Of a DNA stretch of 50,721 bases, positions 3,227 through 35,942 are shown piece after piece. The notes beneath the pieces are model-generated. The model was not told where the DNA came from and searched no databases. It worked only from the letters and a program-made list of their open reading frames with translations. The stretch covers positions 1-50,721 of the forward strand of contig JAURZI010000117.1 of NCBI GenBank assembly GCA_030653435.1, in the 5' to 3' direction. Within the stretch, counting starts at the first letter, position 1. Every line of letters starts with the position of its first letter. The stretch comes from Methylovulum sp. Its GTDB lineage: Bacteria > Pseudomonadota > Gammaproteobacteria > Methylococcales > Methylomonadaceae. The position numbers and the translations under genes are program-made.

Positions 3227-4750
3227 TTAGTGATGAAAATCAGTCGTGGGTAATGAACGGATCAACAACGCGGTTTTATCCAGCGCCGCCAATGCGCCGG
3301 TAATCACGCGCAGGCCGCCATCCTTATCGGCGACGGCCTGGACGATAAGCCGGGTGCTGATGCACAGCCGCAATGCGCTAACCATGATGCCGTCGCGCTT
3401 GCCGCACGCTACCGGTTGGCCCAACTGGCAACGCGTTGCAGTGTTGCCTTGATAGCTATCCAGCGTGGTAGGCAGTTGCCTGTATACCAGCATCGTTTCT
3501 TCCATGCTTAAAGGCTTACGTCCGGCATCGGCATGATAAAGCAGGAATGGGAAAATGGTCTGGAGGTGATCCCAGCTATCGTCCGTCAACAGCGGACGGC
3601 GGTCTAGCGCGGGCACGGCTAACGGTTTAAAGTGTGGGTTGTTGTGCAGGCGTTGTAGGATAGCCGCAGTAAAGTCTTTGATAATGCCGATCGTTAGGGC
3701 TAACGGTATGGCACGGAAAGCACGCAGTTCCTGCGCGGCGATTTCCCAGCGCAACAGCAGGCCAAAAGCGCTGGTTTGTGCGTCATGTGCGGTTGTCGTC
3801 CAGTTTGCAGGCCAATCCGACTTGCTTGATGATGCGCTTAGTGCGTTAGGGAACGGGCGTAATGCCAGTTGGTGCGCGGTTTGCGGCGGAACCAGCAGCG
3901 CAGCCGAAAAGGATGGGCCGCTCAGGAATTTCGAGCCGGTCAGCGCGACTATGAAACCTTGCTGCAAATAAGCCCGTAATGTCGGCTGTGCGATGCGGAA
4001 CTGGCAGGCATCAACCAGCATGTCGATGTTATGCGGATACTGGCGTTGCAAGGCCAGTACACAGTGCAGACTAGGCGCGAGCAAGCCGGTCTTGGACTGG
4101 TCGACGAGTATCAGCAGGACGCGCCGGTTTGCTTTAGCGGCTATGCTGACAAGTTCGGAAACGTCCGCATCAATATCGGTTGCCGGCCTAGTGCTGCCAT
4201 CGGCCAGCCGTACCGATACCGCTACGATTTCCGGTGCAGGATGCCCCGATGCTACGGTCAGACGACTGCCGTCCAACGCGGCACGGACGCCTCGACCGGT
4301 TTCGTTGGCGTCTATCATCACGATCCGCGCGGGGCTGGTTGTGCCGCTGCCTGTATATTGCGCCGCAACGCTATGGGCATCGGTGCCTGACGGCGAGAAA
4401 ATGATTTCCGTATTGTCCGGCAGTGCACATAAGTCCCGCAATTCGGCACGGATGCGCCTGAGCTCAAGGGCATAGACGGTTGCCGCTGATGCGCTGCCCA
4501 GTGCATGCAGCAAGCGTTGGCGCATGCGCTGGGCATACCCGTAACCTTCGGGGGAAATAACCGACGCCGTAGAGGAGCCGTAAGCCAGCAGTTCCGGTTC
4601 GGGATAAGGTGAACAGCCGTAGGCGTTCAAGCCCGTAACCGCATCCAGCGCAATGCGCGCATCGCCACCTGCGGTCAATAGCTGTGCCGTGGATGGCAGG
4701 CATGCTGGCGTGCCTGCTGCTTGTTCGTCGTGCCCAGCATGCGTTTTCAC
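3227..4750 (-). CDS. uncharacterised fold-type-I PLP-dependent enzyme
   Basis: This 507-residue protein looks like a member of the aspartate-aminotransferase-fold PLP family, closest in style to class V aminotransferases and cysteine desulfurases. Visible marks are a phosphate-binding-like IIFSPSGTDAH (about residue 116), a PLP-pyridine aspartate candidate in MLVDACQF (about 245) and a Schiff-base lysine candidate in ALTGSKFLSGPSF (about 270). The start is GTG, overlapping the ATP-grasp stop (GTGA), which implies translational coupling. The C-terminal third is unlike aminotransferases I know. It is the last of three coupled genes with a decarboxylase and an ATP-grasp ligase, so it probably acts on an amino acid or amine made or joined there. 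The actual reaction is unknown. Confidence 0.7.
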   Translation of the reverse strand: MKTHAGHDEQAAGTPACLPSTAQLLTAGGDARIALDAVTGLNAYGCSPYPEPELLAYGSSTASVISPEGYGYAQRMRQRLLHALGSASAATVYALELRRIRAELRDLCALPDNTEIIFSPSGTDAHSVAAQYTGSGTTSPARIVMIDANETGRGVRAALDGSRLTVASGHPAPEIVAVSVRLADGSTRPATDIDADVSELVSIAAKANRRVLLILVDQSKTGLLAPSLHCVLALQRQYPHNIDMLVDACQFRIAQPTLRAYLQQGFIVALTGSKFLSGPSFSAALLVPPQTAHQLALRPFPNALSASSSKSDWPANWTTTAHDAQTSAFGLLLRWEIAAQELRAFRAIPLALTIGIIKDFTAAILQRLHNNPHFKPLAVPALDRRPLLTDDSWDHLQTIFPFLLYHADAGRKPLSMEETMLVYRQLPTTLDSYQGNTATRCQLGQPVACGKRDGIMVSALRLCISTRLIVQAVADKDGGLRVITGALAALDKTALLIRSLPTTDFHH

Positions 4751-5979
4751 GGCGCTAAAGCATCCTGCGGCGTTGCGTCCAGCAGCATTTGCCGGAATGC
4801 CGCAAACACTTTGTGCATTTGCGGTTGCTTGTAAGGGAATAGCTCGACCGGATCCAGGGCATGTACGATCATGCAGCTGTCCACTTCAAAAATCAGCAGC
4901 TTGCCGTCGGGCGTTTCGGCGCAGTCTATGCCCAGATAATCCAGACCCAGACATCCGGTAATGGCGCTGAATGCCTCGGCATGTTTGGTGGCAAAGCTTG
5001 TGTCGAAGGTTGCCATGACGTGCGCTTCTTCGGCGCGTTTCTGGTCGTTTTCCGCCATCCCAGCATTCAGGTAATGGATCATCCAGTGCTCGGATATGCC
5101 CAGATGACAAATAAACGGGCGGCCTGCAATCAATACGATACGGTATTTCCTGAACAAACCGTCCGGGCTGCGGTAATCAATAAACCGCGATACATAGAAT
5201 TCGCTACCGTTATGGTCTTGCAAGTAAGCAGCCAACGTTGCGACATCGGTTATTTTATCCAGACCCTGTCCGGCATGAGAATCGACCGGGCGCACAATCA
5301 TCGGATAAGCGCCGTCCGCCATCAGGCTATCGGCCGATAGCCCATTGCTACTGAGTTGTTCCAGCCTTTGCCTGCCCACGCGCACCGTAACCGGCATCAT
5401 GACGCCAGGCAAGTATTGCAGCAAGGCACAGGCCTGATCGCGCGATAGCAAGGCTATGCGCGCCGGTAAGTTAAGTACGGGGTGCGGCCATGCTGCGAGC
5501 GTGACCGCCAGTTCTTGCAACAGCGGCATATTGTCGTCGGACTGGGCAACCGCGACGAACAGTACGTCATGGTCGGGCAGTTGGGCAGGTAAATGTCGGT
5601 TTGCCGTGACATAAACCTGGGTCAGCGCAATATCGGAGTTTTCCAGCAAGAATTCCAGCGGCGTGTTGGCCATCAAATCGCCGTTGCTCATGATCGCGCA
5701 AACGCGGAGTTTGACCGGGCCGTTTGCTGTCGGCGGTGTGTAAATCTGTTGGTTGCCGATAGCGTCGGCTTGCATCAGCAGCGCCAGTTCGCGGTTGCCC
5801 CGCAGTTGCAATACCGTCGACAAGTCCATCAAGGTATTGGCGCAGGGATTGGCGTTAGCGCGGGCAATCAGCTCCGTGCCCAAGGGCGCGAGGTCTGCGC
5901 CGGCGAAAGCCATAGCCATCAGTTTGGCAAGGCCGATCAATGCGGTGGGGTTTTCGTCTTGCAGATCGTTGGCGGTCAT
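4747..5979 (-). CDS. ATP-grasp ligase with N-terminal helical region
   Basis: This 410-residue protein has an N-terminal helical, TPR-like part (about 1-75, with LSTVLQLRGNRELALLMQADAI) and a RimK-like ATP-grasp part. The ATP-grasp features seen are YPMIVRPVDSHAGQGL (about 227; nucleotide-binding loop with Arg in place of the frequent Lys), a hydrophobic strand ending GRPFICHLGISEHW, and LLIFEVDSCMIVH (Mg-binding Glu). ATP-grasp enzymes join a carboxylate to an amine, thiol or similar group through an acyl phosphate. The gene overlaps both neighbours by four bases (ATGA upstream, GTGA downstream), so it belongs to one operon with two PLP enzymes. Substrates are unknown. An amide-forming step on the product of the decarboxylase is a reasonable guess, but only a guess. 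Confidence 0.75.
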   Translation of the reverse strand: MTANDLQDENPTALIGLAKLMAMAFAGADLAPLGTELIARANANPCANTLMDLSTVLQLRGNRELALLMQADAIGNQQIYTPPTANGPVKLRVCAIMSNGDLMANTPLEFLLENSDIALTQVYVTANRHLPAQLPDHDVLFVAVAQSDDNMPLLQELAVTLAAWPHPVLNLPARIALLSRDQACALLQYLPGVMMPVTVRVGRQRLEQLSSNGLSADSLMADGAYPMIVRPVDSHAGQGLDKITDVATLAAYLQDHNGSEFYVSRFIDYRSPDGLFRKYRIVLIAGRPFICHLGISEHWMIHYLNAGMAENDQKRAEEAHVMATFDTSFATKHAEAFSAITGCLGLDYLGIDCAETPDGKLLIFEVDSCMIVHALDPVELFPYKQPQMHKVFAAFRQMLLDATPQDALAP

Positions 5980-7433
5980 CGGTTGTCCTGGGCTTGGGTG
6001 GTTAGACGGTTGCCAAAATCCAGCACGGCATTGACGAGTGCGTCGATGTCGTCGGCAGTGGTGCGGTGATTGACGATTGCTGCGCGTATCGCCAGTTTGC
6101 CGTGCAGCAGGGTGGTCGATGGCGCGGCGATACCGGATTCCTGCACGGCGACGGTAATTTCCGCATTGATCCGGTTGGCATCAGCGCTACGATAGCGGAA
6201 GCAGACGATATTCAGTGCAACGGGCGCTAGGAGTTCCAATTGCGGACTGGCTGCGATGCGTTGTTCCAGGTGCTGCGCCAGCAGGCAGGTGTTTGCAATG
6301 ATATGGCCTAATTTTTCCGCCCCGTACACTTTTATCGTGAACCAGGTTTTTAGCGCCCTGAAGCTGCGCGACAGTTCCGGGCCTAAATCGCAAGGCCAGG
6401 GCGAGCCTGCTGCGAGGCCGCGGGTTTCGCGCATCAAATAGGCGGCTGGGGAGGCAAAAGTGTCCAGCTGCTGTCGGCTATCCCTGACCAGTATAAAACC
6501 TGCGTCATAAGGGACTTGCCCCCATTTATGGAAATCGAAGGCCAGCGAATCGGCAAGCCCTATGCCTTGCAAGCGCGGTGCTAGGTCGGGGGCGAGTATC
6601 GCCAGAGCGCCATAAGCGCCGTCGACATGGAACCAGAGCTTTTCGCGCCGGGCAAATTCGGCAATGGCGCTTAGCGGGTCAATGGCGCCGACATCCACTG
6701 TGCCTACCGTGGCGGCAATAAAAAACGGGGTCAATCCGGCTTGTTTATCGGCGGCGATGGCCTCTGCCAGGGCGGCGACATCCATTTGATAGTCGCCGTT
6801 GACCGGGATCATACGCAAAGCATCGCTACCGATGCCGGCAATATCCATAGCCTGGGCGATGCTGAGGTGGGCGCTGGTCGAGGTATAGGCGACCAGGCGT
6901 TGCGTGGACGCAGCAATGCCGGTCCGGCGCACGCTTGCACCCAGGAGCGCGGTTCGGGCAATCAATACGCTGATAAGATTGGCCATGGACGTGCCGCTGA
7001 CCAACAGGCCGCCAGCCGTTTCCGGGAAACCAAACAGCCCTCGCACCCATTGCACCAGCTGCCGTTCCAGTTCAACCGGCGCCTGGTCACGTCCGCCGAG
7101 GTTAGCATTGAGTCCGGCCGCCAGCATGTCCGCCAACATACCGACCGGCGTGCCGCCGCCATGGACCCAGCCCATAAAACCCGGATGGGTATTGCCCACG
7201 GCATAAGGCAGGATGGTTTTCATGAACAGGTCATGCGTCTCGGCAAGATCGCCGGGGCTATCATCCAGCTGTTGCCGGAATGTCCCGCGCACGGCTTGCG
7301 GCTGCGGCTGCCAGACCGGCTGTGTACGGAGATGCTCAAGATAATCCAGCATATCGTCAAGCATTTGATGGCCTTGTGCGCGAAAAGCAGGCCAATCGTC
7401 CGGATCCAGCGTGTTGTCAGAAGTTTTTAGCAT
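5976..7433 (-). CDS. group II PLP-dependent amino acid decarboxylase
   Basis: This 485-residue enzyme belongs to the pyridoxal_deC family (aromatic amino acid, glutamate and related decarboxylases). Conserved features are GGTPVGMLADML near residue 91, LVSGTSMANL (about 144), HVDGAYGA (about 271; PLP aspartate) and SLAFDFHKWGQVPYDAG (about 305; Schiff-base lysine in HKW). The length matches bacterial aromatic-L-amino-acid decarboxylases. It removes the carboxyl group of an amino acid to give an amine. Exact substrate cannot be read from sequence. It is the first gene of the coupled three-gene operon and overlaps the ATP-grasp start by four bases (ATGA). About 200 bp without a clear promoter precede it, shared with the divergent DUF5610 gene. 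Confidence 0.88.
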   Translation of the reverse strand: MLKTSDNTLDPDDWPAFRAQGHQMLDDMLDYLEHLRTQPVWQPQPQAVRGTFRQQLDDSPGDLAETHDLFMKTILPYAVGNTHPGFMGWVHGGGTPVGMLADMLAAGLNANLGGRDQAPVELERQLVQWVRGLFGFPETAGGLLVSGTSMANLISVLIARTALLGASVRRTGIAASTQRLVAYTSTSAHLSIAQAMDIAGIGSDALRMIPVNGDYQMDVAALAEAIAADKQAGLTPFFIAATVGTVDVGAIDPLSAIAEFARREKLWFHVDGAYGALAILAPDLAPRLQGIGLADSLAFDFHKWGQVPYDAGFILVRDSRQQLDTFASPAAYLMRETRGLAAGSPWPCDLGPELSRSFRALKTWFTIKVYGAEKLGHIIANTCLLAQHLEQRIAASPQLELLAPVALNIVCFRYRSADANRINAEITVAVQESGIAAPSTTLLHGKLAIRAAIVNHRTTADDIDALVNAVLDFGNRLTTQAQDNR

Positions 7434-33364: not shown

Positions 33365-33958
33365 CTAAAAACACTTTGCTCGAAACTCATCGGGTATATC
33401 CAGGCTAAATGTTTCATGCTGTATGCGGGCCATATAAAATCCAGCCGCCAATACCCGCTTTTTTAAAGCGTCGCTGATGTCCACCGCAGCGATAATACCG
33501 TAAAGTTTTTTGTCCTTATGTTCGGGGAACAGCGTTTTAAAATTCGCCATCAAACTATTGAGTTGGGTAATCGCTTCCTCGCGACAATGGCTTTTGACTT
33601 CCACAACATAGACTTCATTGATAGCGCTATTGGCATACGCCAGCACATCAATCTCGGCATCGATGCCGTTTTTACTCACTCGGACACTGGGGCTAATCAC
33701 TTCCATTTTAAACCGCTCGCGCAGGATTTTGGTCATCGAAGGCAAGGCAAGCCCTTCGGTAAAACTGCCAAACTTTTTACCCAAGCCGCCGATTTGTTTG
33801 CCCAATTCTTTGAGTTGAAGGTCAAGTTCCTGTTTTCGTTGGTCGGCTTCCCGGGCCATTTTTTTCCGTTCTTCATTGAATGCTTTCTGTTCTTCACTGG
33901 TCTCTTTTTGGGCAACTGCCAAACTGGCAACCAGTTGTTTTAATTCGTCGTCAGTCAT
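33365..33958 (-). CDS. DUF3782-like PD-(D/E)XK protein with coiled coil
   Basis: This 197-residue protein has an N-terminal charged coiled coil (about 5-60, rich in Glu, Lys and Gln) and a C-terminal nuclease-like domain with DAEIDVLAYANSAINEVYVVEVKSHC (about 107-132), the D-(x)n-ExK core of the PD-(D/E)XK superfamily. Proteins of this kind (DUF3782/DUF3532 style) are frequent in genomes rich in mobile DNA and have no settled function. It lies beside the reverse-transcriptase remnant, but I see no direct link. Confidence 0.75.
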   Translation of the reverse strand: MTDDELKQLVASLAVAQKETSEEQKAFNEERKKMAREADQRKQELDLQLKELGKQIGGLGKKFGSFTEGLALPSMTKILRERFKMEVISPSVRVSKNGIDAEIDVLAYANSAINEVYVVEVKSHCREEAITQLNSLMANFKTLFPEHKDKKLYGIIAAVDISDALKKRVLAAGFYMARIQHETFSLDIPDEFRAKCF

Positions 33959-34034: not shown

Positions 34035-34268
34035 ATGCAATTGGATTTATTTCAACAATTTAGCACTAGCCGCAACGCCGGGGTTTAACTCCACGAACTG
34101 TTTGAAGCGTATACATAATGTCGCCGCAATAAGTGCAACACGGCGAATGCGCTGGCGTTTGAAATGGATTACGAAACCCGACTGATCGACTTGTGGCAGG
34201 ATATCAATGCACACACCTATAACCCAGGCAAAGTGGCGTGTGGTGCGCTTAAGGAAAGCGGCGAATAA
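34035..34268 (+). pseudogene. decayed reverse transcriptase N-terminal fragment
   Basis: One frame from the ATG at 34035 reads through two TAA codons (34086, 34116) to a third at 34266. The translation, MQLDLFQQF then LHELFEAY, CRRNK.NTANALAFEMDYE and LIDLWQDINAHTYNPGK, matches the opening of bacterial reverse transcriptases of the kind with DARRNKRNT...ALxFExxxE...TYxPG, found in diversity-generating retroelements and related RTs. The catalytic palm (YADD-type motif) is missing, so the piece is a relic. It precedes a DUF1566 gene with variable-region character. Assignment is from memory of the family pattern. Bases 33959-34034 and 34377-34542 around it hold nothing else I can name. Confidence 0.6.
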
Positions 34269-34296
34269 AATTACTTTTAAGACAAATAGATAATTT

Positions 34297-34376
34297 GTAG
34301 GGCGTGCTGCGCGCGCCATCAACGGGTTGGCGCGTTATACCTTTACGCCGGAGAAGGCGCGCGCGGCACGCCCTAC
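34297..34376. repeat. 80-bp palindromic MITE/REP-like element, copy 1
   Basis: It starts GTAGGGCGTGC and ends GCACGCCCTAC, with inverted ends of about 20 bases rich in GC repeats (GCGCGCGCC / GGCGCGCGC). A second copy of identical length lies at 35752-35831 in the same orientation with about 73 of 80 bases identical. Such elements are often mobilised by a transposase elsewhere. Confidence 0.85.
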
Positions 34377-34542
34377 TTCAGATGCTGTGGTAATAAACTG
34401 AACAATGACGAGCATTTTTCTTAACTATGAGCAGTGACGCTCCGCATGGGTACGATAAGAAAGCAATTTATTTTCTTGTGATAAGGTCATTAATTTTGTA
34501 GTGTACATTGCACCCTAAACTATTTCTCCTGTAGATATCCCT

Positions 34543-35490
34543 ATGAAATCAATGTACAAACAACTGGCCATAACGCTGATATTGGCCGCTATCGGTATCC
34601 ATACCGTTCATGCCGTAACACCGGCGGGCAAGCCAGTTAACGCCACCATCAAGCTGCAAGGCGGCAGCGATTCCAGTGCCGAATGGAAAGCCCCGTTCAC
34701 CTCTGCCTATAAAGTCCATGTGTACGTACCGAAAACAGGTACCACCACCAACGCCCTGTACCGCGTTTACCCCAACGGCAAACGCGCGGGCAGCACCGAA
34801 TGCCTGGGCAGCGATGCCAAATTCCCCTGTCAAGAAGTGACTATCGACCAAACCCTCTATCCCAATGCCTGGACACAACTGATGGTGGACGATGATCCGG
34901 CGACGCAATGGGCGTTTGTCAAAGGCAAAGGCTACGTTACCGTCGTCGCCAGCAACCTTAGCGCGGTGGAACTTTTAAACCTGTCCGGCTTGGTGCGCTT
35001 TGAAAACCAAACCATCGCCATCGGCAAGACCTACCAAGGCGGCCTTATTTTCTATGTTGACGGCACCGGCGAACACGGCTTGATTGCCGCAGCGGCTGAC
35101 CAAAGCGCTGGCATTCAATGGTATAACGGTTCATATTTGACTACAGGAGCTACGGCTACCGCCGTGGGCACGGGGCTGGCTAACACGACCAAGATTATCA
35201 AGGCGCAAGGCGCGGGTTCTTATGCCGCCAAATTGTGTGCAAATCTGGAGATCGGCGCGTACAGTGATTGGTATTTGCCGTCAAAAGATGAATTGAACTT
35301 GATGTATACCAACATTGGCCAGGGGGCTGCCGCACCGTTGACCAATGTGGGTGGTTTTGCCGTTGCCTGGTACTGGAGTTCGTCTGAATTCGGCTTCAAC
35401 TACGCGTGGTTCCAGAGTTTCGGTAGTGGCGGTCAGCTCAACAACGGTAAGTACGACACGGATGCAGTCCGTGCGGTGAGGGCTTTTTAA
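34543..35490 (+). CDS. secreted DUF1566 protein, likely DGR variable target
   Basis: This 315-residue exported protein has a signal peptide (1-25, cleaved after TVHA), an N-terminal beta domain (about 26-160) and a C-terminal DUF1566/Lcl-like lectin-fold domain, from GKTYQGGLIFYVDGTGEHGLIAA through YSDWYLPSKDELNLMY to the end. The last 40 residues follow the plan WSSSE...AW.Q......Q....K..T..VRAVRAF, known from targets of diversity-generating retroelements. From codon 283 to 308, 19 of 26 codons end in C or T. The seven others are mainly the scaffold residues A, W, Q, Q, K, T. That is what adenine mutagenesis of AAC/AAT template codons would leave. No template repeat is present in the window. 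It is flanked by two copies of an 80-bp repeat and follows a reverse-transcriptase remnant. A surface ligand-binding role is inferred. Confidence 0.8.
   Translation: MKSMYKQLAITLILAAIGIHTVHAVTPAGKPVNATIKLQGGSDSSAEWKAPFTSAYKVHVYVPKTGTTTNALYRVYPNGKRAGSTECLGSDAKFPCQEVTIDQTLYPNAWTQLMVDDDPATQWAFVKGKGYVTVVASNLSAVELLNLSGLVRFENQTIAIGKTYQGGLIFYVDGTGEHGLIAAAADQSAGIQWYNGSYLTTGATATAVGTGLANTTKIIKAQGAGSYAAKLCANLEIGAYSDWYLPSKDELNLMYTNIGQGAAAPLTNVGGFAVAWYWSSSEFGFNYAWFQSFGSGGQLNNGKYDTDAVRAVRAF
35371..35490 (+). other. putative DGR variable region (VR)
   Basis: Codons 277-315 of the DUF1566 gene. The variable-looking block is 35389-35466, and the invariant 3' end coding VRAVRAF and the stop is 35467-35490. 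Assignment rests on codon pattern and family resemblance. The matching template repeat has not been seen. Confidence 0.55.
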
Positions 35491-35517: not shown

Positions 35518-35542
35518 CCCGCGCAGCGGGCGCGATTTTTTT
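35518..35542 (+). terminator. hairpin after the DUF1566 gene
   Basis: CCCGC-gca-GCGGG, a short spacer and seven T residues. It may be a simple rho-independent terminator. DGR targets also often carry a hairpin just downstream of the variable region, so both roles are open. Confidence 0.6.
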
Positions 35543-35636
35543 GACCTATGGCGCTTTACTATGATTTACCCGTCTGTCGGGACACCTATCGACTGATCTT
35601 AAAGATATTTGAATGCACTAAGGATCTTGTAGCGGG

Positions 35637-35656
35637 ACGGGGGTTTGTAACCCCGT
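35637..35656. repeat. hairpin repeat
   Basis: ACGGGG and CCCCGT, 6-bp arms with an 8-base loop, in the non-coding stretch between the DUF1566 gene and ilvI. Confidence 0.4.
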
Positions 35657-35708
35657 ACTGAATGTTTTGAAGCTGCCGTTACCGTGAATTATCCGAGAAA
35701 CCCTGCGA

Positions 35709-35727
35709 ACGGGGCAACATGCCCCGT
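35709..35727. repeat. hairpin repeat
   Basis: ACGGGGCA-aca-TGCCCCGT, a perfect 8-bp stem with a three-base loop. It shares the ACGGGG/CCCCGT arms with the hairpin 50 bases upstream. Confidence 0.5.
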
Positions 35728-35751
35728 CTGGCTTCACTAAAGTTGCCTATT

Positions 35752-35831
35752 GTAGGGCGTGCCGCGCGCGCCATTAGCGGATTGGCACGTTTTACCTTTA
35801 CGCCGGAGAATGCGCGCGCGGCACGCCCTAC
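35752..35831. repeat. 80-bp palindromic MITE/REP-like element, copy 2
   Basis: Same length and orientation as the copy at 34297-34376, with seven differences. The two copies bracket the DUF1566 gene like direct repeats about 1.4 kb apart. Confidence 0.85.
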
Positions 35832-35833
35832 GC

Positions 35834-35942
35834 TTCAGCCCGTTGGGGGTAACGCGAGGAACCCCCAACGATTGACGCTCCGATGTGTTGTACCCTCTGG
35901 GGCATCAAGGGTTCGTACCTCGCCCCAACCTACTGGGCTGAA
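35834..35942. repeat. long intergenic repeat with nested inverted arms
   Basis: Outer arms TTCAGCCC and GGGCTGAA enclose about 90 bases. Inside the left part, CGTTGGGGG and CCCCCAACG form a 9-bp stem. The piece abuts the 80-bp element directly. It looks like a palindromic intergenic repeat unit rather than a gene. Confidence 0.6.

Follow-up and report, generated by a model that had tools for sequence, protein, structure and literature searches.

Does the 3′ end of a predicted surface-protein gene in Methylovulum sp. carry a site that was written by a diversity-generating retroelement (DGR) and, if so, is that site still being rewritten? The window, a stretch of 50,721 nt, is contig C7 of a draft assembly (genome G000; 4.66 Mb in 161 contigs, 99.95% complete). 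A first-pass annotation of the sequence described the gene at 34543–35490 (+ strand) as coding for an exported DUF1566 protein with a 3′ end resembling a DGR variable region (VR). The gene has the 315 codons and the DUF1566 assignment described, and its product has a Sec-type leader, as judged by eye. Pfam Lcl_C (formerly DUF1566) matches residues 185–313 (E = 3.3e-11), and codons 277–315 encode YWSSSEFGFNYAWFQSFGSGGQLNNGKYDTDAVRAVRAF, in agreement with the WSSSE plan that had been quoted. In six pairwise comparisons with homologues, dN/dS across codons 1–276 is about 0.15–0.20; outside of the variable site, the gene has the low ratio of a working protein. The nearest named homologues are from methanotrophs (Methylovulum, Methylocucumis, Methylobacter, Methylomonas, and Methylococcaceae).

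The composition of codons in this gene alone is not informative. Codons ending in C or T (NNY) account for 19 of the 26 codons in the interval 283–308, exactly as counted in the first-pass annotation, and the seven that do not fit all encode scaffold residues. But the remainder of the gene has 173 such codons of 289 (Fisher P = 0.13), and a count of at least 19 is reached in 52 of the 290 26-codon windows of the same gene. We therefore reject the count as proof of a DGR; the pattern becomes strong only once sequences of relatives are added. Boundaries of the VR (35346–35482, +) come from homology to positions 3925–4061 of a template repeat (TR) in a related locus, L045, through the end of the IMH. 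Within the VR, codons 283–307 (35389–35463, +) include 15 for which the L045 template has AAY or GAY. The VR ends in a 19-nt IMH-like anchor (35464–35482, +) identical to that of the L045 TR, and the sequence that follows is CTTTTT in the window versus ATTTTA in the L045 TR. We infer from the sequences that the anchor and its tail represent an IMH/IMH* pair. A possible but weak hairpin (35520–35534, +; folding z of −2.33) after the VR could be a terminator or a DGR target-site hairpin. It was dropped as a target-site signal because hairpins are inconsistent among the five stretches that were folded.

Comparison with the template retained in L045 demonstrates, at the level of sequence, a template-directed pattern. 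L045 is in another genome of the genus, on the same contig as G010:C352, and its protein is 73% identical to that of the window gene. The repeat at 3925–4070 of L045 and the VR of the same locus are separated by 18 substitutions, each of them at an adenine of the template, plus 12 nt of gaps. The window VR aligns gap-free to this template, which is from another species, and excluding the tail after the IMH, the fractions of template bases that differ are 17/39 for A, 1/29 for C, 2/42 for G, and 1/27 for T. Changes to adenines are therefore far in excess of those to other bases (17/39 vs. 4/98; P = 6.7e-8), although the four differences at other bases and the foreign origin of the template count against the DGR reading. 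In the 15 AAC, AAT, GAC, or GAT codons of the template, 17 of 28 adenines and none of the 17 other bases are changed (P = 2e-5). As a control, the 240 nt upstream of the VR have 34 mismatches between the window and L045, of which five are at A in L045. Differences expected of a DGR target are thus at template adenines, with the L045 template standing in for the gene's own template, which was not found. When used as a query against 61 genomes, the best match of the L045 template outside its own place is the window VR (84%). As a further caution, the contig of L045 has a frameshift in the target near residue 27, and that copy is therefore broken or misassembled.

Across 142 VR-like stretches in the loci compared, six loci (L045, L057, L066, L067, L076, and L143) have a second copy nearby with mismatches biased toward A in that copy, and several other loci have unbiased paralogous copies only. 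VRs can be longer than the L045 template, by 12 nt in L045 (3205–3362) and 6 nt in L044 (9402–9556), and the extra length falls where the template consists of AAC repeats; a change in length during copying of the template is possible. At L042:9122–9157, approximately 800 bp before the target of that locus, 36 nt match the end of the VR and its IMH exactly, as if left by a second target that was lost.

Patterns of conservation in homologues are inverted at the variable site. Among 15 full or nearly full-length homologues, pairwise identity at codon positions 1, 2, and 3 is.31,.30, and.61, respectively, in the 15 variable codons, versus.71,.74, and.47 in codons 41–276. NNY codons make up 210 of 225 at the 15 template-variable positions (11 to 15 of 15 in single genes), and 316 of 597 at the 40 codons that vary most in the rest of the homologues. 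For the variable codons, five of the six pairs that include the window gene have dN above dS; the exception is L047 (dS 1.80, dN 0.76). Such dN values might also arise from ordinary positive selection alone, acting on an exposed lectin surface, and the nonsignificant NNY excess in the window gene would also be compatible with selection and no DGR. Against this, the changes are at template adenines and spare the other bases of the same codons, and remains of avd and of a reverse transcriptase (RT) are located on either side of the gene. Selection alone would also need the third positions of these codons to diverge as much as those of the rest of the gene, and the homologues show the reverse, with the third position better conserved than the first two in these codons only. 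We consider an origin by selection only to be very improbable.

Remains of a DGR flank the gene. Downstream, at 35548–35628 (+), are the first 27 codons of avd, 93% identical to avd of L045, after which homology ends at a palindromic repeat sequence. The 114-aa protein encoded after the target in L045 matches Pfam bAvd above the cut-off (E = 6.4e-22). Its counterpart in genome G001 matches the PHROG "Avd protein of DGR" (E = 7.4e-27), and scores 66.1 bits against NCBIfam DivGenRetAVD, under the 80-bit cut-off of that model. Upstream, at 34035–34241 (+), is the relic of a DGR-type RT; it covers the N-terminal part, has two TAA codons inside, and is 52–54% identical to the DGR RT of G001 (E = 6.1e-13). 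Because the relic corresponds to the N-terminal part, a test for RTs based on PF00078 alone missed it. The statement in the first-pass annotation that the window has neither a template repeat nor a working RT holds within the searches made, but it did not describe this broken RT and the avd stub.

The relic and the target need not share a history. The relic and neighboring genes for a DUF3782 protein and a lytic transglycosylase are syntenic with G010:C447 at 88–90% DNA identity, and where the window has the target, the stretch of G010:C447 compared has a response-regulator-like gene (by eye). The presence of the relic in G010:C447 without an adjoining target means that it need not belong to the cassette of the target, and it may be older than the present place of the target. 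The DUF3782 gene adjoins the relic in both the window (33365–33958, −) and G010:C447. Weaker DUF3782 matches (23–39%) are near the avd stub in L047 and the DGR-type RT in G003 (related coordinates are L200:1133–1819, L047:11316–11945, and L193:925–1140).

Copies of a palindromic repeat are located between the RT relic and the target (34295–34381, strand unassigned) and past the break in avd (35751–35838, strand unassigned); the second is 91% identical to the first over 77 nt. The repeat is part of a family, with 37 matches in the genome to a query spanning 35600–35900. The idea that repeats at the two breaks are a single mobile unit was unsupported, as a stricter palindrome pattern had three matches in the genome and none in the window. 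Four more fragments of avd were found in the genus, at L208:215–316 (G011), L209:1–75 (G005), L047:11060–11110 (G014), and L210:7195–7269 (G017). In G000, G005, and G011, avd breaks at about codons 26–32. L045 retains avd and TR, and upstream of its target is a weak match of 29–41 residues to the C-terminal part of an RT (E = 0.00651 for 29 residues); no RT core was found in L045. Two copies of a holC-like gene (L045:1494–1934 and 5941–6147) flank the DGR remains on this single 6.1 kb contig.

The L045 template, the inverted conservation of codon positions in 15 homologues, and the nearby remains of avd and RT support the original proposal of a DGR target. We suggest that the window gene is, with high probability, a former target whose variable site was written by a DGR, orphaned by loss of the cassette, and is now probably frozen. 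In the proposed sequence of events, an adenine-mutagenizing RT would have copied an AAC/AAT-rich template into codons 283–307, with copying anchored at the IMH (35464–35482). The cassette would then have been lost, leaving avd cut after 27 codons and followed by a palindromic repeat, and the template and RT gone. That retrohoming was the mechanism at this target would follow from general knowledge of DGRs.

Where the site was written is less certain. The target gene is a mosaic, in which codons 41–120 are closest to L042 (nucleotide identity of.88) and codons 241–280 are closest to L045 (.94). The rise in identity to L045 starts near 35223 and runs on into the avd stub, except in the VR and the intergenic gap. 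This structure indicates an exchange between target genes, either of the VR-bearing 3′ end and avd or of the 5′ part. If the former, the site could have been written in another genome and brought in together with the 3′ end, through recombination or transfer, and the lineage may never have run a DGR on this gene. The mosaic and the extension of high identity into the avd stub are as expected of such an import. Conversely, identity of the 3′ part is near the 88–90% of the syntenic RT-relic locus in the same two genomes, and common descent of the 3′ part followed by exchange of the 5′ part therefore fits equally well. An imported site is a possibility, though a doubtful one. Spread by viruses or plasmids was considered and set aside; a degenerate VR pattern had no exact match in viral contigs. 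Protein searches identified one viral contig (53% over residues 160–315), one plasmid record (52.5% identity, covering 25% of the query), and two phage records (26.7–28.2%).

Whether written in place or elsewhere, the site appears to have lost its DGR. In the 161-contig assembly, there is no match to RVT_1 (PF00078), and the RT of G001 as a query recovers only the relic. With the VR as a query for a template, the assembly yields the VR itself and 11 chance matches of 15–21 nt. With the L045 TR as a query, it yields only the VR; of the 22 first-look candidates of this genome, 13 were scored. The L045 Avd as a query recovers only the 27-codon stub. A working DGR-type RT, a template repeat, and a full Avd were thus each sought and not found in this genome. 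The first-pass annotation had counted the lack of a template-like copy in the genome against a DGR, and such a copy is indeed lacking; the DGR reading nevertheless stands because the broken cassette explains the absence. Of the two states it had offered, served in trans or frozen, the latter fits better, and based on absences from the assembly, the target is probably frozen.

Service in trans would require a DGR on an unassembled replicon, or sister cells with an intact locus, as structural variants. Both cases have been published for Thiohalocapsa PB-PSB1 (PMC10907252), the IMH of the target is intact in sequence, and the genome is a draft. However, TR, an RVT_1 match, and full avd are missing from an assembly that is nearly complete. 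Moreover, genome G019 is in one contig and has a full-length homologue in which 14 of the 15 variable codons are NNY, yet its best match to the DGR RT is only 32% identical and the sole RVT_1 locus it has belongs to the QGGVISP type. Continued diversification in trans is therefore unlikely, and we favor a frozen site.

Intact cassettes in relatives provide a reference for what the window has lost. Loci L206 and L057 have the order target-avd-TR-RT and matched stretches without stops, and TR and VR differ at 18 of 50 A and 2 of 100 other bases in L206, and at 19 of 55 A and 2 of 92 other bases in L057. Cassettes with the same order in L076 (21/41 A, 2/107 others) and L207 (19/51 A, 4/102 others) each have one stop, which in L076 is within the match to the target and in L207 is within avd. 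GxxxSQ is a mark of DGR RTs, and QGxxxSP is a mark of other RTs. The RTs of all four cassettes have the motif GNLTSQ, and those of most other RT loci checked in relatives have QGxxxSP.

Genomes of the genus with homologues and those with DGR-type RTs do not overlap. Full-length homologues are in 10 of 20 genomes (G000, G006, G009, G010, G011, G013, G014, G015, G017, and G019), and similarity searches found no DGR-type RT in any of these ten. By similarity, DGR-type RTs are in two of the 20, G001 (the query itself and a 317-residue match at 38%) and G003 (298 residues at 43%), neither of which has a full-length homologue. G018 has a 31% match to a DGR RT over 309 residues, with no match to the motif pattern. 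The lack of overlap applies to a set in which G013 and G015 are 76% complete, G014 is 88% complete, G010 is in 950 contigs, and RVT_1 loci were checked in part for motifs.

The VR is located in a lectin-like domain. The AlphaFold model of the protein (pLDDT 86.4, pTM 0.66) is similar to the Legionella Lcl C-terminal domain (8q4e; Foldseek E = 9.8e-8, TM 0.79 on the target) and, much more weakly, 4eps (E = 1.3e-3), a structure tied to DUF1566 targets (PMC4159848). The Lcl_C match and the Lcl fold together place the VR in the C-terminal domain. Lcl (PMC11162425) and the window protein have the same fold, and their last 39 residues align gap-free. Four lysines of Lcl were tested for glycosaminoglycan binding (PMC11162425), and three fall on template-variable positions (283, 299, and 305), an overlap that is suggestive only (chance P = 0.15). 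Lcl has a collagen-like stalk, but no collagen repeat is seen by eye in the window protein, which also lacks all of the lysines. The term "diversity-generating" is absent from the main text of the Lcl paper (PMC11162425). By analogy to the structure of Lcl, the variable surface is predicted to bind a ligand, probably a glycan or the surface of another cell. The protein is most likely an adhesin, either secreted or at the cell surface, that retains a single fixed, putative binding site of a former library.

DUF1566 is a common target of DGRs (PMC4159848, PMC6642488). Systems with such targets, including L206, L057, and L045, share with the window an Lcl_C domain, a C-terminal VR, and A-directed differences, but the window lacks a TR, working RT, and full avd. 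Incomplete loci have also been described, in Thiohalocapsa PB-PSB1, in which MITE-like arrays replace the RT or TR and there is service in trans and structural variants (PMC10907252). As in the window, PB-PSB1 has C-terminal lectin-like VRs and DGR parts that are cut or replaced by short palindromic or MITE-like repeats, and its targets are scattered and recombined (PMC10907252). Unlike the window genome, in which none were found, PB-PSB1 has other DGRs that supply RT and TR, and its variation was observed in nature, whereas here one genome per species was compared. Considered alone, the locus is one more decayed DGR of a class already known from published incomplete loci (PMC10907252). No publication title on DGRs of these methanotrophic bacteria was found in the literature searched, which covers part of the field.

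The locus implies that a hypermutation system that has been lost is recognizable by its product, given the template of a relative and inverted conservation of codon positions. Surveys of DGRs that seek an RT beside a target will miss such loci, and surveys are reported to miss remote targets (PMC8144416). Across the genus, we tentatively propose that DGRs are short-lived authors of Lcl_C binding sites, that 3′ modules spread by recombination among scattered target genes, and that the sites persist as a fixed repertoire once the DGR is lost. The possible survival of sites beyond their DGR across the genus is the most interesting part, and is offered with similar reserve. If true, diversity written by DGRs outlives them, and selection on fixed binding sites becomes testable. 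Genes of the Lcl_C type also occur in clusters that have no match to avd or a DGR-type RT in the surrounding stretches searched, with three in a row at L211:5332–8858 (G008) and two at L212:6990–9176 (G019).
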